From NCBI GenBank assembly GCA_900315895.1, contig ONAY01000014.1, positions 1-35,723 on the forward strand: DNA of 35,723 bases, given 5' to 3'. The translations under genes and the position numbers were made by a program. The DNA is from an uncultured Eubacteriales bacterium. GTDB lineage: Bacteria > Bacillota > Clostridia > Peptostreptococcales > Anaerovoracaceae. The notes beneath the pieces are model-generated. The model was not told where the DNA came from. It did no database searches and was given only the letters and a program-made list of their open reading frames with translations. This document shows, piece after piece, positions 3,261-21,200 of the stretch (positions are counted from its first letter, which is position 1; every line of letters begins with the position of its first letter).

Positions 3261-3293
3261 ACGGTGTTACTCAGGTAGGAGGGCACCGTTTTT
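3261..3293 (+). terminator. terminator of gatZ-like gene
   Basis: ACGGTG (3261-3266) pairs with CACCGT (3284-3289), with a small inner CTC/GAG pairing, and is followed by TTTTT. It overlaps the hipA stop codon, so the convergent genes have separate, interleaved terminators. Confidence 0.6.
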
Positions 3294-4572
3294 ATAATGT
3301 TTTGCTGATGCCGCCTTTCAACAATATGTTCTCGGCGATATTTTTTGCTTTGGAAAATCCCAACGAGCAGAGTTCTTCTGAAGCTTCAAGCAGCGCAGGC
3401 CTAAAAGTTTCTGCCAACCGATCGAGCCTGTCAATCGCCAGACCACGGCCGATGCCAGCCTGAGATGCGGCTTTCAGCCAATTATCGCGAGAAACTTTTT
3501 CTACGGCATACTCTCCTCCGATATTAAAGCTCATGTTTCGTGAAGAGCCTTCATAGATCACAGTGCTCACCATGTCATAGGCCGGTGCCAAACGGACTGA
3601 AGACAAGTCATCCGAATATAGCAGAGAATAGTTTTTCAGGTGGGCGTCTGTATTTCCTATGAGCCAGTTGAACACCACCATGTCCCAAAAACCGATGATA
3701 TCATCGATGGGATCAGTGGAATGATGCCTCAAAAGATCGGTCATCATCGGCAGATAACTGTCCCCGGACCTTTCATATTTTGAGACGGGAGGCACACCCA
3801 GAGCCTGACAAAAGTCTTCCTGGTGGAGACGGAGGGGTCTTTTGAGGCCTGAGATCGTATCGTCTGAATATTCCTTCCGGTCATATCGCTCGGTAGCGAA
3901 GAGAACATCTCCTTCGCCGGAATCACCGGTATCGATGATGAAACTGTGAGGAACAGCGATCCCCAGTTTTGAGGCGGTCAAAAGACAGAGCTTCTCATTG
4001 GTGACGATGGCATCGTACCTTACGTGACTTTGCTTTACGATGCAGTTGCTGGGAGCGGAACCCAGAGGCAGATACCAATGGCCTGAGGATCCATCATGAT
4101 ATAGGCCAACCTTGCCCGACGCACCGGTCAGTGACAGGTGAGCTTCTGCCACCAACTGCGCGGACTGGGTGGCACCCTCCTGCGCCAGAGCGCTGATCCG
4201 GTCGAGGCCCAGAGGCTCGTATGATGGAGTCGGTTCCGGCGAACCGTCTTCAACGATCCTTATGGCTCCAAGACACTCGTTTCCGAGGTGGGCGAGAATC
4301 GCCGGGTAGTCTCCCTCATCTGCGCGGACCCATTGAGATACCGTCCTTCTGGTGAAACCTTCCGGAAGAAGGCCATCGAAAAAGTTTCCCGTCTCAGTCG
4401 GGCTGAAAGGCGCCGCCTGAAGTGGCAGACTGATGGAAACAGGTTTTGCTATGGGGGAAGACATATAGGATTCATCATACGTGAAAACAGTGTCTTCCGG
4501 TCCTGAGCCACGAAGAGTTCCTATGAACTTTTGAGCCCCTTTGATCTCAAGATATACTGACAGTTCTCTCAT
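3292..4572 (-). CDS. hipA: HipA-family serine/threonine kinase toxin
   Basis: This 426-residue protein is a HipA-type kinase. In E. coli HipA phosphorylates glutamyl-tRNA synthetase and induces persistence, while relatives have other targets. Visible features are an N-terminal HipA domain (about 1-105), a glycine-rich loop SLTGASGKVGL at 147-157, a nucleotide-binding Lys180 in CIVK, RYDR at 229-232, the catalytic NTDAHLKN at 307-314 (Asp309) and the metal-binding AYDM (Asp333). All core kinase residues are present, so the enzyme looks active. It starts one base after the stop of the HTH gene, which implies translational coupling in a hipBA operon. The leftward terminator at 3222-3249 ends the unit. 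The target cannot be predicted from the sequence. Confidence 0.92.
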   Translation of the reverse strand: MRELSVYLEIKGAQKFIGTLRGSGPEDTVFTYDESYMSSPIAKPVSISLPLQAAPFSPTETGNFFDGLLPEGFTRRTVSQWVRADEGDYPAILAHLGNECLGAIRIVEDGSPEPTPSYEPLGLDRISALAQEGATQSAQLVAEAHLSLTGASGKVGLYHDGSSGHWYLPLGSAPSNCIVKQSHVRYDAIVTNEKLCLLTASKLGIAVPHSFIIDTGDSGEGDVLFATERYDRKEYSDDTISGLKRPLRLHQEDFCQALGVPPVSKYERSGDSYLPMMTDLLRHHSTDPIDDIIGFWDMVVFNWLIGNTDAHLKNYSLLYSDDLSSVRLAPAYDMVSTVIYEGSSRNMSFNIGGEYAVEKVSRDNWLKAASQAGIGRGLAIDRLDRLAETFRPALLEASEELCSLGFSKAKNIAENILLKGGISKTL

Positions 4573-4573
4573 T

Positions 4574-4786
4574 CTATCCTCTCCCCTTCAGTTCCAGATC
4601 GAGCCCCAGGGTGTTGGCGATGATGATCGCCTTCTCCAGCTCTGCTGTCTTCTTTCCCCTCTCAAGATCGGACAAAAAACTCACGCTGAAGCCCGTGAAT
4701 GCCGCAAGCTCCGCCTGGGTGTATTTTAGAGCATTACGTCTGTCGCGGATGGCTTGGCCGAAATCCTTGCTGCTGGTGATCGTCAT
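4574..4786 (-). CDS. hipB: HipB-like XRE-family antitoxin/repressor
   Basis: This is a 70-residue single-domain helix-turn-helix protein of the XRE/Cro type. The helices lie around residues 9-60, with YTQAELAAFTGFSVSFLSDLERGKKT forming the HTH core and first half of the following helix. By analogy with HipB it should bind HipA and repress its own promoter. Its stop codon lies one base before the hipA start. A GAGG element lies about nine bases upstream of the ATG on the minus strand. Three copies of a GCCGTACGGC-type palindrome cover the promoter and leader, which fits autoregulation. Confidence 0.88.
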   Translation of the reverse strand: MTITSSKDFGQAIRDRRNALKYTQAELAAFTGFSVSFLSDLERGKKTAELEKAIIIANTLGLDLELKGRG

Positions 4787-4816
4787 AATAATGTACCTCG
4801 ACTTGCAAAAAACTTG

Positions 4817-4911
4817 TGCGTACGGCTATTAATCGTGGATCATGGATAAATTTAGCCGTACGGCTTATTCTGGTTGACTCTATTATATATTTAGCCGTAC
4901 GGCGAAGTCAA
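4817..4911 (-). promoter_or_regulatory. hipBA promoter with three palindromic operators
   Basis: On the minus strand, TTGACT (4911-4906) and TATAAT (4887-4882) are separated by 18 bp. A palindrome GCCGTACGGC (4894-4903) lies between them. A second, AGCCGTACGGCT (4854-4865), lies just downstream of the expected start. A third, imperfect copy with CGTACGGCTA (4819-4828) lies nearer the gene. Their centres are 38 and 39 bp apart. Repression by HipB with HipA is the natural reading. The sites and spacing are seen directly; binding is inferred. Confidence 0.8.
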
Positions 4912-5000
4912 GTGGCTGGGCATGAAGGTAATAAAAAAAGATAGACAACCATTTCCGATTAATGAACACATCCGATTTCTATTGGATGTGCAGACTGTAG
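4912..5000. other. short intergenic stretch with hairpin
   Basis: No gene is visible. CACATCC (4967-4973) pairs with GGATGTG (4984-4990). This small stem directly abuts the larger stem-loop at 4991-5041. Confidence 0.4.
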
Positions 5001-5699: not shown

Positions 5700-5764
5700 A
5701 CATGAGCTGGTCGCAAGACCCAGGTTCAACCTAACAGGCGTGGGAGACTCCCCGCCATTTTTTT
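5700..5764 (+). ncRNA. small structured RNA upstream of a DUF3800 remnant
   Basis: A stretch of about 65 nt runs from a consensus promoter to a T-run and contains three hairpins. The first is CTGGTC-GCAA-GACCCAG (5707-5723), which has a GNRA tetraloop and one bulged C. The second is AGGT-TCA-ACCT (5722-5732). The third is a terminator stem, GGCG/CGCC plus GGGA/TCCC (5737-5756), followed by T7. No ORF of note lies inside. It sits 24 nt upstream of a DUF3800-type start. Structured RNAs upstream of DUF3800 genes (the DUF3800 RNA motifs) have been published, and this is likely one of that group. The exact motif number cannot be assigned by eye. Confidence 0.65.
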
Positions 5765-5787: not shown

Positions 5788-5935
5788 ATGGGGTATTTAA
5801 GTATATTTGTGGACGAATCTGGCGATTTCGGAGATTATCAATCCCACTCGCCATACTATATTTTGACATTGGTTTTTCATGATCAGGTATAAAGATTTTG
5901 TTCGAAGGCTTGAACTGAAAAAGTTCTAGGAATTA
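5788..5935 (+). pseudogene. DUF3800 gene remnant
   Basis: From the ATG at 5788 the frame encodes 34 residues beginning MGYLSIFVDESGDFGDY and ending in FHDQV before a stop at 5890-5892. FVDESGDFG followed by SPYYILTLVFHDQ is the N-terminal signature of DUF3800 proteins, which are normally over 200 residues. After the stop, another frame reads YKDFVRRLELKK and then stops, so a frameshift and large deletion are likely. The rest of the gene is missing before the crotonase promoter. DUF3800 has an RNase H-like fold by family knowledge and its role is unclear. Confidence 0.75.
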
Positions 5936-6907: not shown

Positions 6908-6932
6908 AGAGGCGCCGCGGGCGCCTCTTTTT
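6908..6932 (+). terminator. crotonase gene terminator
   Basis: AGAGGCGCC (6908-6916) pairs perfectly with GGCGCCTCT (6920-6928) around GCG and runs into TTTTT. Confidence 0.85.
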
Positions 6933-6994
6933 GTGTGATTTTTGGCGGGACGGGGTGAGTGGGGGCAGGTGGACTGTCTAGGCTGAAGGACTCA

Positions 6995-7136
6995 GACGCA
7001 ATTGAGATTTTTTGCGATTGCGTCCTAGGTTTCGGGGAAAAGACTAGGACGCAAATGGTCGAAACAGGGGTTTGCGTCCTAGTGGGGCAGGAAAAAACTA
7101 GGACGCAAATGGTCGAAACGGGGGTCTGCGTCCTAG
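6995..7136. repeat. hairpin-repeat array A (arm CTAGGACGCAAA)
   Basis: Three inverted-repeat units. A2 pairs CTAGGACGCAAA (7044-7055) with TTTGCGTCCTAG (7071-7082). A3 pairs the same arm (7098-7109) with TCTGCGTCCTAG (7125-7136). Both have arm midpoints exactly 27 nt apart and a near-identical 15-nt loop starting TGGTCGAAAC. The two units are 54 nt apart. A1 is divergent: GACGCAAT (6995-7002) with ATTGCGTC (7017-7024), midpoints 22 nt apart. No ORF here is believable. Confidence 0.9.
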
Positions 7137-7171
7137 TGGGGGTGACTGGAGTCGATGTGTGGGCGGGGTGA

Positions 7172-7580
7172 TTGGGTCAGAATGGGGTGTTTTGTGCAAT
7201 TCTGACCCAACTTGCTGGCACGAAACTGGGTCAAGCATGGTGTTTCCCTCGAATCAGACCCACTTCCAGCCCGAAAACTTGGGTCAGATAAGCCTACTCC
7301 CCCAAATCTGACCCACTCCCAGCCCGAAAACTTGGGTCAGATAAGCCCATTCTCCCGAATCTGACCCAAACCCCGATCAAAATATTGGGTCAGCTTGGCC
7401 AGGATCCCAAAATCTGACCCACTCCCAGCCCGAAAAATTGGGTCAGATAAGCCCATTCTTCCAAATCTGACCCAAACCCCAATCAAAATATTGGGTCAAC
7501 TTGGCCAGAATCCCGGAATCCGACCCACTCCCCATCACAATATTGGGTCAGATAAGCCAAATCCCTCATTTCCGACCCAT
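7172..7580. repeat. hairpin-repeat array B (arm TGGGTCAGA), eight units
   Basis: Eight units of TGGGTCAGA...TCTGACCCA. Left arms start at 7173, 7227, 7280, 7333, 7386, 7439, 7492 and 7544. Right arms start at 7201, 7254, 7307, 7360, 7413, 7466, 7519 and 7571. Arm midpoints are 27 nt apart in seven units and 28 in the first. Units repeat every 52-54 nt. Loops alternate between a TAAGCC type and a TTGGCCAG type, and the linkers between units alternate CTCCCAGCCCGAAAA and AACCCCRATCAAAATA. The higher-order unit is therefore about 106 nt. Open frames through the array are artefacts of the periodicity. Confidence 0.95.
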
Positions 7581-7683
7581 CCCCCCGAAAAAATACTTCC
7601 TACTTTCAAGTTTTCTTCAAGGTTCGGCGGATATAGTGGTACCATCAAAAGCAAAACCTTTTAGGAAAAGGGAGGGTAAGACA

Positions 7684-8985
7684 ATGAAATTCAAAAGATT
7701 TTTAGCTGTCGGCCTGGCTGCGTCCATGATCTTCACCATGGCGGCCTGCGGCACAGCACAAAATACACAGGAGCAGGCGCAGGCGGAAACTCAGACTGAG
7801 GCCACCGCGACGGCTTCTGACTATACATATGATTCAGTCGTAAGTTCCATAGACGGGGTCTACGAAAATTCGGTCATCGACACCGCTGATATGTTCACGG
7901 AGCGGGATCTCACTCAGAATGCGGACCTGACGGACGCTACATACTTCACTGTATCTGACGGGCAAAACATTGAGATCACGGAAGCCGGCGTCTACGTCCT
8001 TCAGGGGACGGCTGCCAACGTGACTGTCAAGGTGGAGTGCGCGGACGACAGCGCAAAGGTCCAGCTGGTGCTGGACGGCGTGAGCATCACCAATGAATCG
8101 GCTCCTGCCATCTATGTGACAAGCGCGGACAAGGTCTTCATCACCACCACAGATGGCACAAAAAATACCCTTAAGGTCACCGGCACTTTTGTGACTGACG
8201 GGGACACTGACCTGGACGGAGTGATCTTTTCCAAGGATGATCTGGTGCTGAACGGCCTGGGGACTCTGGCGATCTCCTCCACTGATCACGGTGTGGTTTC
8301 CAAGGATGGCCTCAAGGTAACAGGCGGCTCATACGAGATCTCAACTCAGGGCGACGGGCTCAAAGCTCATGACTATATTGAGATCGCAGCAGGTACATTC
8401 AACATCTCAGCTGATGACTGCATCGAAGCAAAAGACGATGATGACGACACCATCGGTTATGTATACATCCTGGGCGGGGCCTTCAATCTTAACGCCACGG
8501 ACGACGGTATCCACGGGACCACATATCTTGAGGTAGACGGCGGAAGCTTCAATATAAACGCCGCCGAGGGACTGGAGGCAACTTACGTGCAGCTTAACGG
8601 CGGCGATGTAACCATAAGTGCCACGGATGACGGCATCAATGCGGCTCAAAAATCCACTTCCGTCTCCTGCAGACTTGATATAAACGGCGGAAGCTATGAT
8701 ATCACTATGGGCCAAGGGGACACGGACGCTGTGGATGTTAACGGCACGCTGAACATCACCGGCGGTGAGATCAATATCACAGCGCAGTGGTCCTTCGACG
8801 TAGACGGACAGATCTCCTTCACGGGAGGCACCGTAATTGTCAACGGAGAGCAGCTCACCACCATTACCACGCAGATGATGGGAGGCCCTGGACAGGGCGG
8901 CATGGCGGGCGGTCAGCCCGGCGGCATGGGCGGCGGGCCCGGAATGGGTGGCGGCCCGGGAGGCGGCAGAGGTCCCTGGGGCTGA
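7684..8985 (+). CDS. lipoprotein with carbohydrate-binding (DUF4353-like) domain and Gly/Met-rich tail
   Basis: This 433-residue predicted lipoprotein has a signal peptide MKFKRFLAVGLAASMIFTMAAC with a lipobox cysteine at Cys22, so it should be anchored on the outer face of the membrane. A low-complexity Q/E/A/T linker follows to about residue 45. The body is a run of short beta repeats (for example DGLKAHDYIEIAAGTFNISADD, then GIHGTTYLEVDGGSFNINA), typical of the DUF4353 carbohydrate-binding-domain family with a right-handed beta-helix look. Acidic Asp-rich turns (KDDDDDT) may bind calcium. The last 35 or so residues are nearly all Gly, Pro, Met and Gln. The ATG at 7684 is eight bases after GGGAGG. 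The ligand is unknown. The gene stands alone between array B and a terminator. Confidence 0.75.
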   Translation: MKFKRFLAVGLAASMIFTMAACGTAQNTQEQAQAETQTEATATASDYTYDSVVSSIDGVYENSVIDTADMFTERDLTQNADLTDATYFTVSDGQNIEITEAGVYVLQGTAANVTVKVECADDSAKVQLVLDGVSITNESAPAIYVTSADKVFITTTDGTKNTLKVTGTFVTDGDTDLDGVIFSKDDLVLNGLGTLAISSTDHGVVSKDGLKVTGGSYEISTQGDGLKAHDYIEIAAGTFNISADDCIEAKDDDDDTIGYVYILGGAFNLNATDDGIHGTTYLEVDGGSFNINAAEGLEATYVQLNGGDVTISATDDGINAAQKSTSVSCRLDINGGSYDITMGQGDTDAVDVNGTLNITGGEINITAQWSFDVDGQISFTGGTVIVNGEQLTTITTQMMGGPGQGGMAGGQPGGMGGGPGMGGGPGGGRGPWG

Positions 8986-9070
8986 TGCCAGTCGGCCCCT
9001 CGAACCTGTGACAGCCCAGAAGCCCATGGACTAAGCTAATAATTCAGCAATATGACGATACCTTTCAATC

Positions 9071-9104
9071 AGGGCCTTCCGGCTGCGGCCGGAAGGCCCT
9101 TCCT
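9071..9104 (+). terminator. terminator after the lipoprotein gene
   Basis: A perfect 13-bp stem (9071-9083 with 9088-9100) has a 4-nt loop and is followed by a weak pyrimidine run (TCCTCTT). Confidence 0.65.
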
Positions 9105-9105
9105 C

Positions 9106-9134
9106 TTGAATATTGGGCCAAGTGGGGGTAAAAT
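9106..9134 (+). promoter_or_regulatory. putative pepT promoter
   Basis: TTGAAT (9106-9111) and TAAAAT (9129-9134) are 17 bp apart. The leader that follows holds an ATGTTTTGCGC motif (9168-9178) and a GGCGGGG/CCCCGCC pairing around it. Confidence 0.5.
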
Positions 9135-9218
9135 CAGAGCATGACGGCAAAGATGCGGCGGGGGCGGATGTTTTGCGCCCCGCCCACACCATAAAATCAA
9201 ATTAAAAGAGAGGAAATC

Positions 9219-10478
9219 ATGAATTCCACATTTAAAGAGAAATTAACCGAAAGATTTTTCAGATATTCGGAGATCCCCAGCCAGAGCGACCCCGCCAACC
9301 CGGTGGTCCCCTCGTCTCAGGGCCAGTGGGAGATGGCGGAGCTCCTCAGGGAGGAACTGGAGGGCCTTGGCCTTCAGGAGGTCACGGTGGACCAGCACGG
9401 CATCGTCTACGGGCATCTGCCCTCAAGGCTCAGCCCGGGCCACGGTCCGGTCCACGCCGTGGGCTGGTGCTGCCACATGGACACGGTGGCGGTGGGCCTG
9501 AGTCCTGAGGTGCACCCTCTGATCATCCGAAATTATCAGGGTGGTGACATCCTGCAGAATCCTGAGAAGCAACTTTACATAAGGGTTGCGGAGCATCCGG
9601 AGCTTCTGGACTACGTGGGCCAGGACATCATCGTGTCCGACGGCACCTCGGTGCTGGGCGCCGACAACAAAGCCGCCGTGGCCAACATCATGACCGCCCT
9701 TGAGATCCTTTGCGAGGACCCCTCCAGGGAGCACGGGGACATCTACGTGGCCTTTACTCCCGACGAGGAGACGGGCCTGAGGGGCGCCAAGCTCATGGAC
9801 TTCACCAAGTTCCCGGTGGATTTCGCCTACACCATCGACTGCTGCCAGCAGGGCGAGGTGATCTACGAGACCTTCAACGCCGGGGAGGCGGTGCTCAACG
9901 TGACGGGCGTTTCGGCCCACCCCATGAGCGCCAAAAACGTGCTGGTCAACGCCTGCACGGTGATGCGTGACTTCGCGGATCTTTTGGACAAGGCGGAGGT
10001 GCCGGAGCACACCGAGCTTCGTGAGGGCTACCTTTGGGTGTCCGAGATGTACTCCGACGGCGTCACCGGCAAGATGATAATCGACATCCGCGACCACGAC
10101 CGCGCAAAATATCAGTATCGCAAGCGCGTCCTCTCTGAGGCCCTTGAGATGGTCAGGCTCAAGTACCCCAAGGCGGAGATCACGCTGGATGTAAAGGACA
10201 TCTACGGCAACATCCTGGACTACGTCACCGAGGAAAACAGGGAGTGCGTGGATCTTTTGCTTAAGGCCGTGGAGGAGCTTGGGATCGAGCCCAAGATCAA
10301 GGCCATGCGGGGCGGCACCGACGGGTCTTTCATCTCCACAAAGGGGATCCCCACGCCCAACTATTTCACCGGGGCTCTCAACTTCCACTCGTCTAATGAG
10401 TTCCTGCCGCTGGATGCCTTCGAGAACGCCCTGAAGGTGACCCTGAAACTCGTGGAGCTCATCGCGTCCCCCAGATAG
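9219..10478 (+). CDS. pepT: peptidase T (tripeptide aminopeptidase)
   Basis: This 419-residue cytoplasmic M20 zinc aminopeptidase releases the N-terminal residue from tripeptides. Expected metal ligands can be seen in order: His86 in CHMDTV, Asp149 in LGADNKAA, Glu183-Glu184 in TPDEETG (catalytic base plus ligand), Asp207 in YTIDC and His390 in LNFHSSNEF. The RGGTDGSF block near the C terminus is typical of PepT. Cysteines flank the first ligand (WCCHMD), where relatives usually have other residues. The length is close to the E. coli enzyme (about 408). The start follows AGAGGA. The gene is single, with its own promoter. Confidence 0.93.
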   Translation: MNSTFKEKLTERFFRYSEIPSQSDPANPVVPSSQGQWEMAELLREELEGLGLQEVTVDQHGIVYGHLPSRLSPGHGPVHAVGWCCHMDTVAVGLSPEVHPLIIRNYQGGDILQNPEKQLYIRVAEHPELLDYVGQDIIVSDGTSVLGADNKAAVANIMTALEILCEDPSREHGDIYVAFTPDEETGLRGAKLMDFTKFPVDFAYTIDCCQQGEVIYETFNAGEAVLNVTGVSAHPMSAKNVLVNACTVMRDFADLLDKAEVPEHTELREGYLWVSEMYSDGVTGKMIIDIRDHDRAKYQYRKRVLSEALEMVRLKYPKAEITLDVKDIYGNILDYVTEENRECVDLLLKAVEELGIEPKIKAMRGGTDGSFISTKGIPTPNYFTGALNFHSSNEFLPLDAFENALKVTLKLVELIASPR

Positions 10479-10494
10479 TTTTTCCAAATAGTTT

Positions 10495-10556
10495 GCGCAA
10501 AACATTCAAAATCCCCTGTGGTCGGTATGGAAATGCCGGATATGTTGTGATATAAT
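10495..10556 (+). promoter_or_regulatory. extended -10 promoter for the zinc-ribbon gene
   Basis: TGATATAAT (-10 TATAAT at 10551-10556 with an upstream TG) gives an extended -10 promoter with only a weak -35. A GCGCAAAACAT motif (10495-10505) lies upstream, between it and pepT. Confidence 0.5.
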
Positions 10557-10610
10557 CACTATGTATACGATTAAAGGGGATTTTTTGTTTTTTGAGAAGG
10601 GGAGGAAATA

Positions 10611-11879
10611 ATGAAATATTGTTCCAGATGTGGGAATGAATTAACTGAAAAAGACGTTTTTTGCTCCAAGTGCGGGGCGAAGGCTTCAAGATATGCGGTG
10701 GACTCTTTGGATAAAAAGCCTGATGCGGGCAAGACCGAGAAGCATGCGGCTCTGATCGGCGAGAGCGTGCCGGGGGCCAGATACACCGCGGCCGTTGAGA
10801 AGAACGCTATCGGAGTCACTGAGTACTTAAGGCGGGCAGCTGACCTGGAGCTCATGAGATACGGCATCAACCGCATCGGCTGGAGCCTGGAGCTGAAGGA
10901 AGCCGAGACGGTGAAAAAGGTGGAGGCCGAGGACGAGGCCCTGAAGACCTTTAGAGAAAAAGAAGAAAACGTAGAGAAACGTATCAACGACTACCAAAAA
11001 AGAGAATATCGTGAGAAGGTCTACAGCTTTAGCCCAAAGCCGGAGCCGAAGATGCTGGGTATAGTTTTCGGAGGTTTTATACTTCTGTATATCATCCTTC
11101 TCATCGCCAAACTGGACTGGGGGATCCTGAAGTTCCCCGGGACGCTGATCTTTGTGGTGTTGCTTCCGGTGCTGACCATCCTTGGCATCGAGATCTACAA
11201 GTACATTTCAGGCAAGGCGGAGCACGCCCGTCTGGAGGAGGAGGCCAAGGTCGCCTACGAGGAAGAGCAGAACAAGATCATGGAGAGCACCCTCGAATTG
11301 CTTAATAACGATCTTATGGATTATCAGAGGATCATCGCCGAGCACGAGAAGACCAAGAAGGATCTGCAGAACATTGATTTAAGCGAGATCGAGGCTGAGA
11401 TCATCATGAACAACAAGGAGAAAAAGGCTACGGAGGAGATGCTGGACAAGTTCTACGCTCCCCAGGCCCTGAACGGCGAGTACAGGTCGCTGGTGCCCGT
11501 GGCCACCCTCTACGAATACTTCAAGACCGGCAAGGTCAAGGACCTGACCTCCGGGGACGGAGCCTACAGGGTCTACAAGAAGGAGCTGGCTGAGGGCATA
11601 GTGACCAACGACCTGCAGGAGCTTTACGCCAGGTTCGCCGGAAAGGGCAAGACTGAAGATCTGCAGTACGCGGTCTACGACAAGGTCAAGAGTTACGATG
11701 ACCTGGCCATCAACTTGATGAACTCCCTGGATGAGGCCATCAAGAAGAGCCACGAAAGTGAGGGAGACCTCAAGATCAGCAGAGAGATGAACAGCTTCTA
11801 CAGAGGAATGGCTAAGAACAGAGAGAGCCACAGGGAATACGTGGATAACGTGGATACCTACTCCAGAAACTGGTTCTGA
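10611..11879 (+). CDS. zinc-ribbon membrane protein with coiled-coil regions
   Basis: This is a 422-residue protein of unknown function. It opens with a zinc ribbon (MKYCSRCGNEL then FCSKCG: Cys4, Cys7, Cys18, Cys21). A charged helical segment rich in Glu and Lys follows (about 85-135). Two hydrophobic helices come next, around 148-168 (GIVFGGFILLYIILLIAKL) and 175-199 (LIFVVLLPVLTILGIEIY). A long Glu/Lys-rich coiled-coil stretch (about 200-280) leads into a mostly helical C-terminal domain. There is no signal peptide, so the zinc ribbon and tail are probably cytoplasmic, with the hairpin in the membrane. asnS follows after a 130-bp hairpin-rich gap with no terminator T-run. Confidence 0.7.
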   Translation: MKYCSRCGNELTEKDVFCSKCGAKASRYAVDSLDKKPDAGKTEKHAALIGESVPGARYTAAVEKNAIGVTEYLRRAADLELMRYGINRIGWSLELKEAETVKKVEAEDEALKTFREKEENVEKRINDYQKREYREKVYSFSPKPEPKMLGIVFGGFILLYIILLIAKLDWGILKFPGTLIFVVLLPVLTILGIEIYKYISGKAEHARLEEEAKVAYEEEQNKIMESTLELLNNDLMDYQRIIAEHEKTKKDLQNIDLSEIEAEIIMNNKEKKATEEMLDKFYAPQALNGEYRSLVPVATLYEYFKTGKVKDLTSGDGAYRVYKKELAEGIVTNDLQELYARFAGKGKTEDLQYAVYDKVKSYDDLAINLMNSLDEAIKKSHESEGDLKISREMNSFYRGMAKNRESHREYVDNVDTYSRNWF

Positions 11880-11912
11880 TAAGCGGTCGCCGAATGAGGC
11901 GGAGCAGAATAC

Positions 11913-11992
11913 GCCGGGCGCAGCCCGGCATCAAGCCGGAGCAACCGGCACCCCGGCCCTGACGGGCCGAAAAAATACCGGGTGATACCCGG
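11913..11992 (+). repeat. four tandem GC-rich hairpins between zinc-ribbon gene and asnS
   Basis: Four short stems lie end to end: GCCGGGC-GCA-GCCCGGC (11913-11929), GCCGG-AGCAA-CCGGC (11935-11949), CGGCCC-TGAC-GGGCCG (11954-11969) and CCGGGT-GAT-ACCCGG (11978-11992). The third is followed by A-runs, not T-runs, so they are not standard plus-strand terminators. No T-box signature was seen. Confidence 0.7.
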
Positions 11993-12009
11993 CACTGAAA
12001 GGAGTCCAA

Positions 12010-13404
12010 ATGGAAACAACATTAGTAAGAGATCTGTATCGCGCAACAGAAAAGTACGGCGGCAAAGAAGTCCTGGTGAGAGGCTGGGTAAGGAATAACC
12101 GTAATTCCAATAAGTTCGGATTCATCGATCTGAACGACGGTTCCTTCTTCAAGTCCGTACAGGTGGTATATGAAGAGGACTCCGTAAATAATTATGAAGA
12201 GATAGCCAAGTGCTACGTGGGCTCAGGCCTTGCCATCAGAGGCATCCTGACCCTTACGCCGGAGGCCAAGCAGCCCTTCGAGATCAAGGCCAGAGAAGTG
12301 GTGGTGGAAGGGACTTCCACTCCCGACTATCCGCTGCAGCCCAAGAGACACTCCATGGAATACCTGAGAGAGATCGCCTATCTGAGACCCAGAACAAACA
12401 TGTTCAGCGCTGTGTTCAGAGTGCGCTCCGTGGTGGCCTACGCCATCCATAAGTTCTTCCAGGAAAGAGGCTTCGTATACGTTCACACACCCATCATCAC
12501 CGGTTCCGACGCTGAGGGCGCAGGCGAGATGTTCAGAGTGACGACCCTGGACCTGGACGACATCCCCAGAACAGAGGACGGCAAGGTGGACTTCTCCAAG
12601 GATTTCTTCGGCAAGTCCGTGAACCTGTCCGTATCCGGCCAGCTGGAGGCGGAGATCTTCGCCCTGGCTTTCAGAGACGTGTACACCTTCGGACCCACCT
12701 TCAGGGCTGAAAACTCAAACACCACACGCCATGCCTCCGAGTTCTGGATGATCGAACCCGAGATGGCTTTCTGCGACCTGGAAGGCGACATGAAGGTCAT
12801 GGAAGACATGATCAAATACATCATAAGCTTCACCCTGGAGAACGCTCCCGAGGAGATGGAGTTCTTCAACAAATTCGTGGACAAGAGCCTTTTCGAGAGA
12901 CTGAACCACATTCTGGAATCCGACTTCGAGCGCGTCCCCTACACCAGAGCAGTGGAACTTCTCAAAGCGTCCGGCAAGCAGTTCCAGTATCCCGTGGAGT
13001 GGGGCATCGACCTCCAGACAGAGCACGAGAGATACATTACCGAGGAGATCTTCAAAAAACCCATCTTCGTCACTGACTATCCCAAGGACATCAAGGCCTT
13101 CTACATGAGACTGAACGACGACGGCAAGACCGTGGCCGCCTGCGACTGCCTGGTGCCCGGTGTGGGCGAGATCATCGGCGGTTCCCAGAGAGAGGAGAGG
13201 CTTGATATTCTCACAGAGCGCATCAAGAGCCTGGGCATGAACGAGGAGGATTATTGGTGGTACCTGAACCTGAGGAAGTACGGCGGAGTCCAGCACTCCG
13301 GCTACGGCCTGGGCTTCGACAGGATCATCATGTACCTCACCGGAGTGGAAAATATCCGTGACGTGCAGCCCTTCCCCAGAACACCCAAGAACGCTGAATA
13401 CTAA
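12010..13404 (+). CDS. asnS: asparaginyl-tRNA synthetase
   Basis: This 464-residue class IIb synthetase charges tRNA-Asn with asparagine. An N-terminal OB-fold anticodon-binding domain ([25 protein letters not shown], about 21-45) is followed by the catalytic core. Motif 2 starts near Phe231 ([21 protein letters not shown]). Motif 3 starts near Gly431 ([15 protein letters not shown]). The ENSNTTRH form of motif 2 marks AsnRS rather than AspRS. The start follows AAAGGAG. No clear promoter lies in the hairpin-rich gap, so it may be read through from the upstream gene. A strong terminator follows. Confidence 0.96.
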
Positions 13405-13425
13405 AGACTATCATATGACAGAGTA

Positions 13426-13460
13426 GGGACCCCGCCGAGGCGGGGTCCCGTTTGTTTTTT
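13426..13460 (+). terminator. asnS terminator
   Basis: GGGACCCCGCC (13426-13436) pairs with GGCGGGGTCCC (13439-13449) and is followed by a T-rich run (13451-13460). Confidence 0.9.
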
Positions 13461-13544
13461 GTGCCGGCAGTCAGTGCAGACCCCGAATTGTATATTTTGC
13501 GCTGATAACTCGCATCCGGATGGGCCTGTTGCCGTAAAAAAGCA

Positions 13545-13573
13545 TTGATAATAGCCAAACCCTTTGATATAAT
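13545..13573 (+). promoter_or_regulatory. promoter of the EF-G-like gene
   Basis: TTGATA (13545-13550) and TATAAT (13568-13573) are 17 bp apart, with a TG just before the -10. The leader is about 60 nt. Confidence 0.75.
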
Positions 13574-13639
13574 CTAGTTTAGGTGTGTGTCGGTCAACAC
13601 ACCAGCACAAAGGTATATTATTTCAGGAGGAAAACATAA

Positions 13640-15529
13640 ATGAAAGGCTACAACAAAGAGACCATCAGAAACGTTGCTTTGCTCGGCCACGGTGGAAGCG
13701 GCAAGACCACTTTCCTGGACGCTGCGCTTTTGGCGACAGGTGTCATTTCCAGACTCGGCAAGGTTGAGGATGGAACGACAGTCTCCGACTATGACAAGAC
13801 GGAGATCGAAAAGGGTTATTCCATCAACACCACCATCGTGCCGGTGGAGTTCAACAAGGTTAAGATCAACTTCCTGGACACTCCGGGATTCTTCGATTTT
13901 GCCGGTGAAGTCCAGGGTGCACTGAGAGCTGCTGAGGCAGCTGCAATACTGGTGGATGCTTCTTCCGGTGTTCAGGTAGGAACCGAGAAGGCATGGCTGG
14001 CCTGCAAGAAGAACAACACTCCGAGATTTTTCATAATCAACAAGATAGATAAGGACAACGTAAATGTGGATCAGGTGGTAGCTGACCTTCAGGCCAAGTT
14101 CGGAACTTCCGTTGTTACCCTTGACGACAGAGACGCTGTTTCCGAAGCCATCGCAGAAGTGGACGAGGAACTCATGGAGATCTACTTCGACGCCGGAGAA
14201 TTCACCGATGAGCAGTTCAACACAGGACTGTCCAAGGGCATCCAGCAGGGAGATATCTGCCCGGTATTCACCTGCTCCGCTCTCACAGGCGAAGGCATCA
14301 AGGAAGTGCTTCAGAAGGTGATCGATATAGTTCCCAAGGCTGACTGTGACGAGAACGGACGTCCCGTGGCATTCATCTTCAAGACTCTGGCAGACGCTTT
14401 CCTGGGCAAGATCTCCCTTGCAAAGGTAGTGTCCGGCAAGCTTACACCGGGAATGTCCCTTTACAATCACACAACAGAGAAGGACGAGAAGCTTGGCTCC
14501 ATGTTCTTCTTAAGAGGTAAGACTCAGGGCGAGTGCCCCGCAGCAGTTGCAGGCGACATCGTAGCTCTTGGTAAGCTTCAGTACACAAAGACAGGCGACA
14601 CCCTTTCCGAGAAGACCAACGAAGTGGTGCTGGATGCCATCGACTTCCCGCAGCCCACTCTGTATCAGGCGATCGTTCCCGTTGACAAGGGCGCTGACGA
14701 CAAGCTTTCCTCCGGCTTCCAGAAACTCATGGAAGAAGACCCCTCACTGGTACTTCAGAGAAACAAGGAGACCAGACAGACCCTTATCGGCGGTCAGGGA
14801 GAGATCCAGCTTGCTATCGCTTTATCCAAGCTTAAGGATAAGTACGGCGTTGCCGTTAACGTAGTTCCCCAGAAGATCGCTTACCGCGAGACCATCAAGG
14901 GCACATCCGACGTTCAGGGCAAGCACAAGAAGCAGACCGGCGGTTCCGGACAGTACGGCGACGTTCATATCAGATTCTCACCCTCCGATCAGGAGTTCGA
15001 GTTCTCTGAGGAACTCTTCGGCGGATCAGTTCCCAAGCAGTACGTTCCCGCAGTTGAAAAGGGACTTCTGGAATGCATGGAGAAGGGCCCCCTTGCCGGA
15101 TGTAAGGTACAGAACGTCAAGGCCGTCCTCTACGATGGATCATACCACCCGGTAGACTCCAACGAAAACGCATTCAAGACTGCCGCATCCCTGGCATTCA
15201 AGAAGGGTATCGTTGAAGCTAAGCCCTGCCTGCTTGAGCCCATCATGAAGCTCAACATCCTGGTTCCCGACGAATACGTAGGATCAGTAATGGGCGACCT
15301 TCCCACCAGAAGAGGCGTTGTAATGGGTATGGATCCCCAGATCGGCGGAGGCCAGCTGCTTCACGCAGAGGCACCTCAGGCTGAACTCTTCGATTACGCC
15401 ATCGCGCTCAGGTCCATGACTCAGGCAAGAGGCTCCTTCACAATGGAGTTCGACCGCTATCAGGAAGTACCTGCAGCCAATGCACAGAAGATCATCGAGG
15501 CTCACAAGGCTGAGGAAGCTGACGCATAA
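13640..15529 (+). CDS. EF-G-like translational GTPase (EF-G2 type)
   Basis: This 629-residue paralogue of elongation factor G has GTPase motifs GHGGSGKT (16-23), DTPG (80-83) and NKID (134-137). Domain II begins near residue 236, and EF-G domains III-V follow, including a QTGGSGQYGDVHI block and a GDLPTRRGVVMGM block. Two things set it apart from housekeeping EF-G. The P-loop reads GHGGSGKT rather than the usual AHIDAGKT, and switch I reads EKGYSINTT instead of ERGITI. The protein is also about 60 residues short, consistent with lack of the G' insertion. Such EF-G2 proteins have an unsettled role. The start follows AGGAGG. It has its own promoter and terminator. Confidence 0.85.
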   Translation: MKGYNKETIRNVALLGHGGSGKTTFLDAALLATGVISRLGKVEDGTTVSDYDKTEIEKGYSINTTIVPVEFNKVKINFLDTPGFFDFAGEVQGALRAAEAAAILVDASSGVQVGTEKAWLACKKNNTPRFFIINKIDKDNVNVDQVVADLQAKFGTSVVTLDDRDAVSEAIAEVDEELMEIYFDAGEFTDEQFNTGLSKGIQQGDICPVFTCSALTGEGIKEVLQKVIDIVPKADCDENGRPVAFIFKTLADAFLGKISLAKVVSGKLTPGMSLYNHTTEKDEKLGSMFFLRGKTQGECPAAVAGDIVALGKLQYTKTGDTLSEKTNEVVLDAIDFPQPTLYQAIVPVDKGADDKLSSGFQKLMEEDPSLVLQRNKETRQTLIGGQGEIQLAIALSKLKDKYGVAVNVVPQKIAYRETIKGTSDVQGKHKKQTGGSGQYGDVHIRFSPSDQEFEFSEELFGGSVPKQYVPAVEKGLLECMEKGPLAGCKVQNVKAVLYDGSYHPVDSNENAFKTAASLAFKKGIVEAKPCLLEPIMKLNILVPDEYVGSVMGDLPTRRGVVMGMDPQIGGGQLLHAEAPQAELFDYAIALRSMTQARGSFTMEFDRYQEVPAANAQKIIEAHKAEEADA

Positions 15530-15541
15530 AACAGTCGAGAT

Positions 15542-15568
15542 AAAGGCTCGCGTATGCGGGCCTTTTTT
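15542..15568 (+). terminator. terminator of the EF-G-like gene
   Basis: AAAGGCTCGC (15542-15551) pairs with GCGGGCCTTT (15556-15565), with one G-U pair, and runs into a T6 tract. Confidence 0.85.
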
Positions 15569-15649
15569 AAACCCCTGAAGGCGGCGCCCATGGCCCACCC
15601 TTCAGGCGCAAAACATCATAGGCGGACTTCCCGCCAATGGAGGTAAAAA

Positions 15650-16027
15650 ATGAACAGACCTGTAGTAACGACCAACGCACCCGGAGCCATCGGCCCCTAT
15701 TCTCAGGCAGTTGACTGCGGAAATATCGTATTCACATCCGGCCAGCTGGGACTGGACCCCATGACCGGTAACCTTGTGGAGGGAGTGGAGGCTCAGGCCA
15801 GACAGGCTCTCTTGAACGTGAAAGCCATAGTGGAAGCCAACGGCATGACCATGGACAACGTGGCCAAGACCCTGGTCTTCCTCACTGACATGAACGATTT
15901 CGCCAAGGTAAACGCCATATATGCAGAGTTCTTTAATGATGCCTGCTATCCGGCAAGATCTGCCGTGCAGGTGGGAGCTCTTCCCAAGGGCGGTCTGGTA
16001 GAGATCGAGACGGTCTGTGTGAAATAG
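15650..16027 (+). CDS. ridA: RidA family 2-iminobutanoate/2-iminopropanoate deaminase
   Basis: This 125-residue YjgF/YER057c/UK114 protein hydrolyses reactive enamines and imines released by PLP enzymes such as threonine dehydratase. The family blocks are APGAIGPYSQAV (10-21), FTSGQLGLDP (28-37) and YPARSAVQVGALPKGGLVEIE (about 100-120), which carries the substrate carboxylate-binding Arg103 and Glu120. The start follows GGAGG at good spacing. No clear promoter of its own was found in the short gap after the previous terminator. That gap contains CTGAAGG/CCTTCAG pairing and a GCGCAAAACAT motif (15606-15616). Confidence 0.93.
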   Translation: MNRPVVTTNAPGAIGPYSQAVDCGNIVFTSGQLGLDPMTGNLVEGVEAQARQALLNVKAIVEANGMTMDNVAKTLVFLTDMNDFAKVNAIYAEFFNDACYPARSAVQVGALPKGGLVEIETVCVK

Positions 16028-16064
16028 TCGGAATAGAATTTTTTGCACTTGATTGCGGGATGGG

Positions 16065-16094
16065 TTGTTTTGGAGCCGTCTGATGTGGTATAGT
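16065..16094 (+). promoter_or_regulatory. putative promoter of the SmsCB pair
   Basis: TTGTTT (16065-16070) and TATAGT (16089-16094) are 18 bp apart, about 45 bp before the ATPase start. The match is moderate. No IscR-like or Fur-like site was recognised. Confidence 0.45.
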
Positions 16095-16139
16095 TCATCG
16101 GGCGGGGGAAAGGTACCCCCTGCAATGAGAGGTAATGTA

Positions 16140-16883
16140 ATGCTTGAACTGAAAAATATTGTTTTTGATGTCAAGGAGGAGACCGGGGAGACAAAGAGGA
16201 TCCTGGACAATGTGAGTCTCTCACTTGACGAAGATATGTTTTATGTGGTCACCGGTCCCAACGGGAGCGGCAAGTCCACGCTGGCCAGGATAATCATGGG
16301 AATCGAAACCCCCACCTCCGGTCAGATCATTTATAACGGAGAGGACATCACTGAGAAGTCCATAACTGAGCGCGCCCAGATGGGCATCAGCTTCGCTCTG
16401 CAGCAGCCCGTAAGATTCAAGGGCATCAAGGTCTCCGACCTGATCAAGATCGCTTCCGGCAGGGAGCTCAGCACGGGAGAGGCCTGCGAGTATCTCAGCG
16501 AAGTGGGACTTTGCGCCAGGGACTATATCGACAGAGAGGTGAACTCCTCACTTTCCGGCGGCGAGCTCAAAAGGATCGAGATCGCAACGGTGCTGGCAAG
16601 GGGAACCAACCTGACCCTGTTCGACGAGCCTGAGGCGGGCATCGACCTTTGGAGCTTCCAGAATCTGATCCAGGTGTTCGATTCAATGAAAGAGAAGACC
16701 AAGGGCACCATCCTCATCATCTCCCACCAGGAGAGGATACTCAATATCGCTGACCAGATCATCCTGCTGGAGGATGGCCAGATCAAGAGGATCGGCCGCA
16801 AGGAGGATATGATGGTGGACATTTTGGGAGCCACGCTGGAAGGCGGATTCTGCGGAAAGATCATGGAAGGAGGTAAGAACTGA
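16140..16883 (+). CDS. SufC-like Fe-S assembly ATPase (SmsC-type)
   Basis: This 247-residue ABC ATPase has Walker A GPNGSGKST (39-47), a Q-loop near FALQQP (85-90), the signature LSGGELKR (138-145), Walker B LTLFDEPEAG (158-167) and an H-loop His196. LSGGELKRIEI is characteristic of SufC rather than of transporters, and no membrane permease is adjacent. It should power the scaffold encoded next to it. The ATG at 16140 has AGAGG seven bases upstream. An in-frame ATG at 16125 is less well spaced. The stop overlaps the next start (TGATG at 16881-16885), so the two proteins are translationally coupled. Confidence 0.87.
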   Translation: MLELKNIVFDVKEETGETKRILDNVSLSLDEDMFYVVTGPNGSGKSTLARIIMGIETPTSGQIIYNGEDITEKSITERAQMGISFALQQPVRFKGIKVSDLIKIASGRELSTGEACEYLSEVGLCARDYIDREVNSSLSGGELKRIEIATVLARGTNLTLFDEPEAGIDLWSFQNLIQVFDSMKEKTKGTILIISHQERILNIADQIILLEDGQIKRIGRKEDMMVDILGATLEGGFCGKIMEGGKN

Positions 16884-17809
16884 TGGCTGAACTTACACAG
16901 GCTCAGAAGGACCTTCTGGAGCAGATCGCAGGTCTTACCTGCAGGCCGGACGGCGCATTCAATATCAGGGCTAACGGCGGACTGGCTGAAAGAGCTGTGA
17001 CCGATCACATCAATATCACTTCCAAGAGTGACGTGCCCGGGATCGACATCACCATCAAGTCCGAAGCTCAGGGCGAGACAGTCTACATCCCGGTAGTCAT
17101 GGACGAGAGCGGGATGGTGGACGTGGTATACAATGATTTCTTCGTGGGTGATGGCGCAGACGTGACCATCGTGGCCGGCTGCGGCATCCACAACTGCGGA
17201 GCGGACGACTCCCAGCACGACGGTATCCACCGCTTCTTCGTAGGGAAGGGTGCTCACGTCAAGTACGTGGAGAACCACTATGGTTCCGGCGACGGCATGG
17301 GCAAGCGCATCCTTAACCCTGTCACTGAAGTATACATGGACGAGGACTCCTCTGTGGAGATGGAGATGGTCCAGATCAAAGGCGTGGACTCCACCATCAG
17401 GACCACCAAGTCTGAGCTGAAGGCCGGAGCCAAGCTGATCATCCGCGAGCGTCTCATGACCCACGGCGAGCAGCACGCCGAGTCCATTTACACCACCGAG
17501 CTCAACGGCGACGGTTCCTCTGCGGACGTTGTTTCCAGATCTGTTGCAAGGGAGAATTCTTATCAGAAGTACACCTCCAGGATCGTAGGAAACGCCGCCT
17601 GCACCGGACACACCGAGTGCGACGCCATCCTCATGGACAACGCCAGAGTTCTGGCCGTGCCCGAACTGGACGCCGCCTGCCTGGACGCTTCCCTGGTGCA
17701 CGAGGCTGCAATCGGCAAGATCGCCGGTGACCAGCTCATCAAGCTCATGACCCTGGGCCTCACCCAGGAGGAAGCTGAAGAGGAGATCGTAAACGGTTTC
17801 CTGGCATAA
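16883..17809 (+). CDS. SufB/SufD-family Fe-S scaffold (SmsB-type)
   Basis: This 308-residue SufBD-family protein is shorter than SufB (about 470-500) and lies in a two-gene unit with its ATPase. That is the layout of the published SUF-like minimal system (SMS). Possible cluster or sulfur ligands are Cys100 and Cys105 (GCGIHNCG), later cysteines in ACTGHTEC and DAACLDA, and the family HEAAIGKI block near the C terminus. No cysteine desulfurase (SufS) or SufU lies beside it, so sulfur must come from elsewhere. It has a ribosome site GGAGG inside the end of the ATPase gene and overlaps it by one base. A strong terminator follows. Confidence 0.85.
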   Translation: MAELTQAQKDLLEQIAGLTCRPDGAFNIRANGGLAERAVTDHINITSKSDVPGIDITIKSEAQGETVYIPVVMDESGMVDVVYNDFFVGDGADVTIVAGCGIHNCGADDSQHDGIHRFFVGKGAHVKYVENHYGSGDGMGKRILNPVTEVYMDEDSSVEMEMVQIKGVDSTIRTTKSELKAGAKLIIRERLMTHGEQHAESIYTTELNGDGSSADVVSRSVARENSYQKYTSRIVGNAACTGHTECDAILMDNARVLAVPELDAACLDASLVHEAAIGKIAGDQLIKLMTLGLTQEEAEEEIVNGFLA

Positions 17810-17827
17810 AATCAGATCTGTATGGAG

Positions 17828-17852
17828 CCGGGCCCCGCGGGGCCCGGTTTTT
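17828..17852 (+). terminator. terminator of the SmsCB unit
   Basis: CCGGGCCCC (17828-17836) pairs with GGGGCCCGG (17839-17847) and runs into TTTTT. Confidence 0.9.
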
Positions 17853-17908
17853 GCGTGCGGGGGTGGGGTGTTTTGCGCGGGGGTGGGTTGGGCGAGGCGG
17901 CCGGGGTT

Positions 17909-18098
17909 TACTGCTTATTTCCAAAAAACAGATCTAAGCAGTACAGAAAACAGGATATTTACTGTTTATCCGCAAAAAATCCATCCAAGCAGTAAACCTA
18001 TGGATCGGGCTTTACTGCTTGTGCGCAAAAAATCCACCTAAGCAGTAAAATCACCCGAAACCCTACTGCTTATTTTCAAAAAATCATAATAAGCAGTA
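17909..18098. repeat. hairpin-repeat array C (arm TACTGCTT), four units
   Basis: Four inverted-repeat units pair TACTGCTT-type left arms (starting 17909, 17960, 18013, 18064) with AAGCAGTA right arms (17936, 17987, 18040, 18091). The second left arm is TACTGTTT and pairs through a wobble. All four units have arm midpoints exactly 27 nt apart and repeat every 51-53 nt. Each loop has an A-run: CCAAAAAACAG, CGCAAAAAATCC twice, and TCAAAAAATCA. No ORF spans it. Confidence 0.93.
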
Positions 18099-18276: not shown

Positions 18277-21200
18277 ATGAAAATTACGAGAAAGCTCCTT
18301 GCAGTTTTGTTGTGCATGGCGGTGATTTTTAGTATGGGAGTAGACACCGCTTTTGCATTTGATCTTCCGGGTAATTATGCTCAGGAAGAAGCAGCAGGCG
18401 AGGCGGTACTTTCTGATACTGAAGAGACGGATGGTTCTGACATCGATGGAGATGCCCAGGGCGATCCGGCTTTTGACGTGGAGGAAAGTACGCAGGAAGA
18501 ACCCGTAACGGAAGAACCTGTAACAGAAGAACCTATAACGGAAGGTCCGCTTCCGGAAGGTTCCACTACGGATGCTGTCGGACCCGAAGCGGCAGAACCC
18601 GACGTTACAGATCCGGTAGTTACAGATCCGGAAGTAAGTATTATTACGAAAGAAGAGCCGGCAAACAGGGATGCGGTCTACACCGTGGCCCTCAACGATG
18701 ACTTCCCGCTGGACACGGATGCTCACGCAGGAAGGCTCTTCGAATGGATCGGAGGCGCCACCTTCGAAGTGTACGATGAAAACGGAAACGTGGTCACCGA
18801 TGAGGAGATCCGCTCCCGCTATGCCTTCCACATCATAGACGTAACAGGAACAGAGGAAGGTTTCGAGTGGGACATGGGAGAGAGCTACGTGCTGTCCCCG
18901 GTGAACGATGTGATATACACCGTTCAGTTCGCCATATTCGAAACTGCCACAGGAGAACAGGTCTCTCCTACCTACACCAGGACCATCAAGACCTACAACT
19001 CGTCTCAGATCCTACCCCTTCTGGATTCCGACGATCAGTACGTGACCAGGGCATGGGTGGAACCCTCCACCTACCAGACTGGCTTTGCCCCCTGGGACGC
19101 CGACAACAATCCCGGAAACGACCAGAACGCCACCAACAACATAGTAAGGAGCTTCGACTCCATCCACTATGAGGTGATCTATCAGACCAAGAGTTATTCC
19201 GAGAACTACTACAAGGAAGGCTACGTCGGTTTCCTGATCCTCATGGCTGACGAGAACGGCAACCCCCTGGATCCGGACGGATCAGAGGCTTACGTTGTCA
19301 AGGACTCCGTCAGCTGGATGAAGACCGATTCAGCCAACACCAAGCTGAACCGCAAAATAGGCAAGGAGGAGTTCACTGTAAACGGCGTAACTCAGACCTA
19401 TTCCTACGTTCAGGGTTATCTGCACCTGGTGGCGGATGAGCAGGCGGACAACGTAATGCCAGTAGCATCTTCATCAGTAGAATTCGACGTGAACGCAGGC
19501 GCCATGATCAACGGCTCCACCATCAAGCCCCTGGTCTACGTATGGTGCCAGTACAACGATTTCGGCGACACCAACGGCGACGGCATAGTGGACGTCGTGG
19601 ACACGACCCACGTCTGCGAGAACGACGCCACCCACGCTCATGCCCAGAACGGCGGCAAAGAGCTGGTCCAGGTGGCGATCCCCAAGGTCATCGTATCTGC
19701 TTTCCCCAGATACAACATTCAGCTCAAAACATACAATTCTGACGGCAACATCTGGGGCATTGGAGGTGTTCTCGGGACCTACGATTTCAGCACAGGAAAT
19801 GATAAGGCTCTGGATAAGAGCGCAGGTTCCGTCTACGGCCGCGGATACGGAATGGGTATCACGGTCCAGCTGTATAACAGCAAGAGCGACAAGAACCTGA
19901 AGGGTATAGAATTCCCCAGAGGGGACATCCAGCTGGACATCAATTTCTCCGGCAAGTTTACCCCGGACAGTCCCAACGGCGCAGTATATCCCATGGACTA
20001 TACCGGAGCAGAGGCCGGGTTCGCACCCCTTATCTGGAGTACTGAAGGGAACAAGGGCGGAGCAGGACAGCAGGACGGAAGAAACCTTTCTCAGTTCACA
20101 ACTGAAGGATTCCCCCGCTACGTTGCGCCATACAACAAAAAAGGCGCCAATGATGTTCTTACGGACGGGAACTTGTGGGGCACCGCAAGCTGCTATGACG
20201 GCGGTACATGGAACGTTCAGCGCATCGATAGTGACACCATAAGATATACAATCAAAAACTATAAATTCAATTCTGCCTGGTTCCCCGCGCAGAACGGGCT
20301 GCTACTTGATTGGCGGTACGATGCCAATATTTACTGGGATCCCAGAATGGGAATAGAGAACAGCTGCCACATCGGCTGCTTCTCCGCAGCGGAACTCTGG
20401 GTGGTGCTTCCGCTGATCTCACCGGACGGCGAGAGACTGGAAGACCACAAGGCCCCCAACGGAGCAGAATACGGCTCAGGCATCGAGACCTTCTTCGTGG
20501 AGGATTCATCCCTTGTAGCCACATCCGCCAGCGGAGTCAACGTGGGATACAGAGATGCCAATGGCAATTACTATGTTGGAGAAGGTGAACCCGGTGACGG
20601 TTACACCCAGGTGACAGATACAAGCAACCAGGAGAGGACCAGTGATGATAAGCTGTCCTTTACCGCAGAGACCTATAAATGGACAGCAGGCACATACTCT
20701 GCTTCTGTCAAGTACAGTTCCCCCTCGATCACGGATCTGTATTGGATATATGACGCATCCTCAATTCCCGGAATAACCAAGGTGGGTCCCGCACAGGCTA
20801 ATGGCAGGGACGTGGCAGAAATATCACAGCCCATAAGCTTCTGGTGGAGAACTTCGGTAGGCTTAGGAAAGAACAGCGATGTCCTAAACTCGTCATACGG
20901 AACCAACGCTCTGGTTCTTTTCGACGACGCGGGAGTGAGACTCAACAGCGAAGCCGGAAGGATGTCCAATACAGAGCATTCCGGCTACCAGCGCAGTAAA
21001 TTCCTTTTCGCCGCAAAACCGGACGGAACCGGCTGGAAGCACTATGGCCTTAAACCGGACAGCACCGATGAAAACGGTACAGTCTGGTACTGCGATGAGG
21101 CCACGGGCAGCATAACCACGGACAAAAAGACCTACCTGGCATACGACTACGAACAGACCACAGCACAGGAGGGTGATCTGGTCTACTATACCTCATATGC

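Follow-up and report, generated by a model that had tools for sequence, protein, structure and literature searches.

Regularly alternating intergenic repeat arrays that share a period across arm families in an Anaerovoracaceae genus

Three arrays in the window and their geometry

The window analysed here, the whole of a 35,723-nt stretch (assembly GCA_900315895.1, contig ONAY01000014.1, positions 1 to 35,723) from an uncultured Eubacteriales bacterium of the Anaerovoracaceae, contains three arrays of short repeated arms, A, B and C, in which the arms alternate strictly in direction and the units repeat every 51–54 nt. Arrays A and B lie past an enoyl-CoA hydratase gene and array C past a SufB/D-type gene, and the same period recurs at other loci of this genome and, with other arms, in congeneric species. 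The features concerned are:

6991..7136, strand not applicable: array A, 6 arms, consensus CTAGGACGCAA / TTGCGTCCTAG, periods 53 and 54
7172..7580, strand not applicable: array B, 16 arms, core TGGGTCA / TGACCCA, periods 52–54
17909..18098, strand not applicable: array C, 8 arms, TACTGCTTA / TAAGCAGTA, periods 51, 53, 51
6909..6932, plus strand: hairpin and T run resembling an intrinsic terminator, after the enoyl-CoA hydratase gene and before arrays A/B, identified by reading, the gap also being flagged in a terminator scan
17827..17852, plus strand: hairpin and T run resembling an intrinsic terminator, after the SufB/D-type gene and before array C, likewise identified by reading in a gap flagged in the terminator scan

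With the arms as delimited in an earlier, sequence-only reading of this DNA, the distance from left to right arm start is 26, 27 and 27 nt in array A (12-nt arms), 28 nt and then seven times 27 nt in array B (9-nt arms), and four times 27 nt in array C (8-nt arms). This recount agrees with the 27-nt spacing in 13 of 15 units that had been claimed, and the recomputed periods (those listed above, running 54, 53, 53, 53, 53, 53 and 52 nt along array B) agree with the 51–54-nt unit repeat. When one arm definition is applied per family, the start distances become 24–29 nt one way and 24–28 nt the other. Because the value of 27 shifts with the placement of arm ends, the period and the near-half-period phase are the firmer facts.

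A period common to several arm families

An arm-blind scan of this genome and its relatives, which the sequence-only reading had proposed as a check, found that the shared period extends outside the window. The scanner accepted any 8-mer save near-palindromic ones, at spacings of ≤90 nt, and required regular alternation; irregular chains were set aside as non-periodic. The genomes are incomplete, with one per species: that of the window (G000; 383 kb scanned, most stretches picked because arm matches lay there), G019 (the genome of L055, a reindeer metagenome-assembled genome named Peptostreptococcaceae, asnS 88% identical; 300 kb sampled blindly), G149 (the genome of L057, asnS 89–91% identical; 165 kb scanned) and G102 (same genus as G000, asnS unmatched as DNA; 290 kb scanned).

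G000 yielded 14 chains of at least four arms. All 11 with at least five arms had mean periods of 52–54 nt, and the three four-arm chains had periods of 51, 39 and 37 nt. Seven chains were found in G019, carrying arms other than those of G000, with periods of 52, 52, 53 and 54 nt for the four with at least five arms and 52, 52 and 48 nt for the others. G149 gave two chains, at 52 and 104 nt (1/1 chain of at least five arms at 52–54 nt), the latter period being twice 52 nt with a degenerate unit between. Of 17 chains in G102, seven lay at 52–53 nt, two at 44 nt and eight were scattered; only two had at least five arms, with periods of 32 and 63 nt. By comparison, 1.30 Mb of Markov-resampled sequence contained one regular alternating chain of at least four arms (period 23–26 nt), and 100 kb of E. 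coli K-12 contained none with the same scanner, which skips near-palindromic 8-mers. Regular alternating arrays exceed chance, and the sharing of one period among arm families is strong in G000, G019 and G149 and partial in the fourth congener (G102, 7/17 chains). The earlier proposal of a conserved geometry with free arm sequence stands to the same extent.

Among 22 other genomes of the family, three 10-arm chains had periods of 83, 86 and 87 nt. The last two both come from G032, which belongs to another genus: its arrays at L095:1650-2049 and L142:12564-12962 share a 43–44-nt half-period and an 86–87-nt period despite differing arms (GACGTGGTGCC vs TTGGTGCA), so that this genus follows the same principle with a different number. 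An array of 10 TTTCAAACA-like arms at G041 L164:3955-4322 has an 83-nt period, off half phase (25/58), and two alternating arrays of G102, at L079:16298-16720 and L129:9000-9258, have periods of 43–44 and 61–65 nt. The sequence-only reading had related the period to five helical turns; regular alternating arrays of 43–44 and 61–65 nt in a congener and 86–87 nt in another genus do not fall on one common phase, which weakens the helical-turn rule and leaves it without support.

The arm families of G000 comprise TGGGTCA (10 loci), CTAGGACGCAA (at C10, C9, C23 and C38), CAGGCTACA (at C38, C50 and C9) and TACTGCTTA (at C10 and C21). The C9 array is composite, one unit each of two families being joined to four TGGGTCA units, all in phase. 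L003 (C38) and L004 (C50) likewise hold composite arrays, with two or three arm families each, and in both contigs the array is followed by the same 3′ gene end, by reading a duplicated tuf gene. G019 carries CAGGCAGGGC, TTATCCTG, GGGCCACA and GTGGGCCGC, plus others. Whole-array alignments between G000 and G019, whose scores are inflated by the shared period, reached z 22.5 for a TGGGTCA/GGGCCACA pair and z 12.5 for a CTAGGACGCAA/GTGGGCCGC pair; array A itself reached only z 2.0 with the GTGGGCCGC array, and TACTGCTTA arrays gave no alignment above z 3.2 with any of seven G019 arrays. Judging from these comparisons, some arm families look like drifted versions of each other, and not all are visibly related, because the TACTGCTTA arrays align with none of those seven G019 arrays beyond that score. 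The arms of A, B and C had been described as unrelated, and no kinship among the three emerged; as a general rule the statement is too strong, because some families have close counterparts in a sister species.

G000 contains 39 matches to the pattern TGGGYCA-N15-22-TGRCCCA, 38 of them within arrays and one not examined; G019, G149 and G102 contain none. Conversely, GGGCCACA-N14-24-TGTGGCCC has six matches in G019 and none in G000, G149 or G102. Over the whole family, the TGGGTCA pair is present in 5 of 148 genomes, the four besides G000 having one match each. Among viral contigs, the arms of A and C matched none and the arm of B matched one, at L197:440-650, where TGGGTCA heptamers stand densely in both directions, many of them 9 nt apart. 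By reading, this cluster is denser and different, looks iteron-like and is unlike the arrays, and it was rejected as a case of array spread in viral contigs.

Gene ends, turnover and what is conserved

Of 20 arrays placed with our own hexamer gene caller, 11 have convergent neighbouring genes, nine tandem and none divergent ones, against a background of 44 convergent, 262 tandem and 62 divergent among 368 gaps (60–1500 bp, arrays included). The convergent enrichment has a Fisher P of 1.1e-5 and the divergent depletion a P of 0.054. These 20 include L079, L129 and L124, off the 51–54 period, and leave out arrays on small loci, one of which (C23c in L005) lies between divergent open reading frames. 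The 20 arrays are extragenic by these gene calls, one G019 array lying in a gene remnant. Of 31 facing gene ends, 18 have a terminator-like hairpin before the array, and transcription of the arrays is doubtful because of these preceding terminators.

Comparison of orthologous places revealed turnover. Arrays A/B and C are absent from theirs in G019, and C is absent from that in G149, whose contig starts at the A/B site so that this site is not comparable; two G019 arrays are without counterpart at the G000 site. At one pair with alignable flanks the arms differ between G000 L034:15475-15800 (TGGGTCA, 53 nt) and G019 L122:17466-18050 (TGGGCCACA, 54–55 nt), and at a second between G019 L068 (TTATCCTG) and G149 C79 (TTACTGTA, 52-nt phase). 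A third pair, L034:8712 (G000) and L122:9368 (G019), shares a gene gap but not a position within it: where G000 has a PAP2-like gene, G019 retains a remnant, and its array lies inside that remnant. Where orthologous sites differ in their arms, either the arms changed in place or arrays were replaced.

Such presence and absence, with arms that are species-specific and spread over several loci, would also suit selfish or mobile elements resembling REPINs (doublets of repetitive extragenic palindromes, REPs, that form hairpins), in which a two-arm module is multiplied by an enzyme that acts in trans on the arms and leaves footprints without a host role. We regard this main rival as possible and rather doubtful. 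The Y1 transposase family PF01797 has two matches each in G000, G019 and G102, IS200-like in kind, and at G019 L108:1501-2400 a truncated Y1-transposase frame lies about 150–250 bp upstream of a 17-arm TGGGCCACA array with a 54–55-nt period. However, the intact G000 protein resembles a standard IS200 transposase, with no array at its locus, G149 (an incomplete genome) has arrays and no Y1 match, solitary modules are scarcely found among the pair matches of G000, and no clean insertion joints were seen at empty sites, where the flanks are too diverged to tell. A REP-associated tyrosine transposase (RAYT) has no clear support as a partner. Two further candidates were rejected: Rpn (TIGR01784), which shows no consistent pattern (none in G000, G019, G149 or G032, weak hits in G014 and G116, and two in G102, of which one exceeds the cut-off), and Nop/Tas, the Nop domain (PF01798) being unmatched in 4/4 genomes.

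Within arrays, sites and spacing are conserved. Over 23 arrays, arm divergence is 0–0.27 vs 0.04–0.75 in loops and spacers, and 18 of 103 periods deviate from the mode of their own array. The spacers of arrays C and C21 are random-like (divergence 0.69 and 0.75), yet the arm starts on either side of them keep a distance of 25–27 nt. The TGGGTCA core is near-invariant over 115 sites at 10 loci and its flanking positions are weak, the choice of sites at ≤1 mismatch inflating the invariance. Tandem arrays are common in intergenic space, and C9, g19h and g19i are near-identical repeats of the kind that neutral slippage would leave, with arms kept alike via template switching or conversion between copies. 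We consider this explanation quite unlikely for the arrays at large: loops and spacers of C, C21, C23b, C5 and C30 differ by 0.5–0.75 while their arms differ by ≤0.18 at arm-to-arm distances of 25–27 nt, one period across arm families and species would be unexpected, and the convergent enrichment also counts against it.

The sequence-only reading had further suggested a hairpin chain or cruciform under selection, in which case pairing itself, in RNA or DNA, would be what is maintained. Array B does fold as a single RNA strand better than shuffles (z −6.25), a good fold that arises because inverted repeats must fold, and single units of C21 and of one G019 array carry matched, compensated-looking changes in both arms. 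When arms were re-dealt within each array (arrays with <3 pairs left out), loop partners had 121 mismatches vs 124.4 ± 3.3 permuted (374/2000 permutations as low; 116 pairs, 21 arrays) and spacer partners 102 vs 106.1 ± 2.9 (225/2000 as low; 98 pairs, 20 arrays). There is thus no detectable covariation of arms overall, and the mismatch types (G-T 34 and A-C 29 of 122 in loops; G-T 34 and A-C 22 of 102 in spacers) show no strong strand-specific wobble. With transcription doubtful as well, selection on pairing appears unlikely. As the arms are kept as sequence and not as partners, oriented protein sites are on balance preferred over a hairpin, cruciform or RNA chain, and a phased protein array is the best-fitting of the structures first proposed. 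Phasing by A-tracts, which was considered when A6 runs seemed to recur in units, was dropped: A5/T5 runs number 0.43 per 53 nt in arrays vs 0.57 in other intergenic DNA.

Elsewhere in the window, an Rfam DUF3800-XI RNA at 5703-5752 (51.9 bits, gathering 37.8) forms no part of the arrays. It is followed, up to position 5889, by 34 open codons that include FVDESGDFG, after which stops appear; this is probably the start of a truncated DUF3800 gene. Rfam matches over array C, obtained in E-value mode, fell below threshold and were taken as chance (mir-5366, 26.3 bits, gathering 73; SNORD79, 24.2, gathering 47; MIR9481, 17.8, gathering 130). A HipA-type gene (Pfam HipA_C and Couple_hipA) occupies 3292-4925 on the minus strand, and the three AGCCGTACGGC-like repeats upstream of it, at about 4819-4903, are perhaps operator sites of a HipB-like regulator. 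A 2741-aa open frame at 18277-26502 contains numerous internal segments that resemble one another, ends in a hydrophobic C-terminal tail and looks like surface proteins of the Cna-B/SpaA type.

Likeness to known systems and a possible mechanism

With about even confidence, we read the arrays as similar to bacterial interspersed mosaic elements (BIMEs): alternating, oriented sites of 7–11 bp for a putative sequence-specific trans-acting protein, growing by module duplication. Most probably a DNA-binding protein recognises the arms and engages several of them at a fixed pitch, the sites alternating strictly at about half of the 51–54-bp period past gene ends. Different arm families would correspond to different or diverged proteins sharing one assembly geometry, and growth would proceed by tandem duplication of a two-site module, with sites and distances kept as the letters between them drift.

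Several results weigh against this interpretation. The 13 stretches of G000 chosen without arm matches (193 kb) held no regular array, two further G019 arrays missed by the scanner tally have periods of 54–55 nt, and 10/17 chains of G102 are off the 52–53-nt period. In the 984 kb from the 22 other family genomes there were 11 chains, none of them at 51–54 nt. Neither Y1 transposase nor Rpn nor Nop follows a consistent pattern with the arrays, and no protein was identified. The covariation test is weak where arms scarcely vary, and the compensated-looking units belong on this side too.

The claim that no named repeat class follows such a rule stood in one part: no palindrome was found in the TGGGTCA core or its flanks, nor, by reading, in the other arm families. 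The anatomy nonetheless matches that of BIMEs, for which PMC2817692 describes short repeats that are spaced regularly, alternate in orientation and lie outside genes in clusters of variable length, including hybrid clusters with two repeat types, as compared with several arm types per cluster here. According to the same paper, each BIME unit is a REP, which holds an imperfect palindrome, whereas here it is a non-palindromic 7–11-bp site, and inter-REP lengths in Stenotrophomonas vary substantially, whereas here one period is common to arm families (PMC2817692). For these arrays a RAYT link like that of BIMEs and REPINs would be hypothetical. They look, by analogy, like an undescribed cousin of E. 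coli BIMEs and are not called BIMEs proper, because the REP palindrome was looked for and not found.

REPINs of P. fluorescens similarly consist of an inverted pair of repeats with a short spacer between, and some form tandem clusters; they are mostly solitary and RAYT-associated, and those of group GI have 16-bp invariant ends 71 bp apart (PMC3116915). Here, by contrast, nearly all pairs stand in arrays with a period of about 53 bp, and dispersed solitary pairs are scarcely seen. GTAG/CGTC-tagged REPs are likewise small intergenic repeats, sometimes grouped, and differ in the 20–40-bp palindrome (PMC3733652) that the arrays lack. Neither tag occurs in TGGGTCA or TACTGCTTA arms; CGTC lies inside the CTAGGACGCAA arm and GTAG on the other strand of the CAGGCTACA arm, by reading not on a palindromic stem. 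Kinship with the tandem interspaced guide RNA (TIGR) arrays of Tas systems seems very improbable. These have two alternating 8–12-nt repeats and variable intervals (PMC12045711), and TGACCCA starts with TG and ends with CCA. However, no Nop-domain gene was matched, intervals here are about 12–21 nt vs about 9, the unit is 51–54 nt vs 36-nt processed tigRNAs (PMC12045711), and the arrays occupy many dispersed loci, among which no common neighbour was seen.

In the open-access literature, with subscription journals mostly outside it, no paper on such arrays in Clostridia was found. To our knowledge, the reason for the regular spacing and alternation of BIME-type arrays is unsettled. One may reasonably guess, by analogy, that the arrays play a part in DNA topology where genes converge, because BIME-2 is reported to bind DNA gyrase (PMC2817692). 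Oligomerising proteins might tentatively be supposed to impose a fixed pitch on fast-changing targets, so that site and protein co-evolve and the pitch becomes lineage-specific (51–54 vs 86–87 nt). In these arrays geometry and sequence separate: arm families share a period, and at two orthologous sites the arms differ between species at an almost unchanged pitch. With geometry uncoupled from sequence, selection on spacing versus selection on sequence becomes a testable question.

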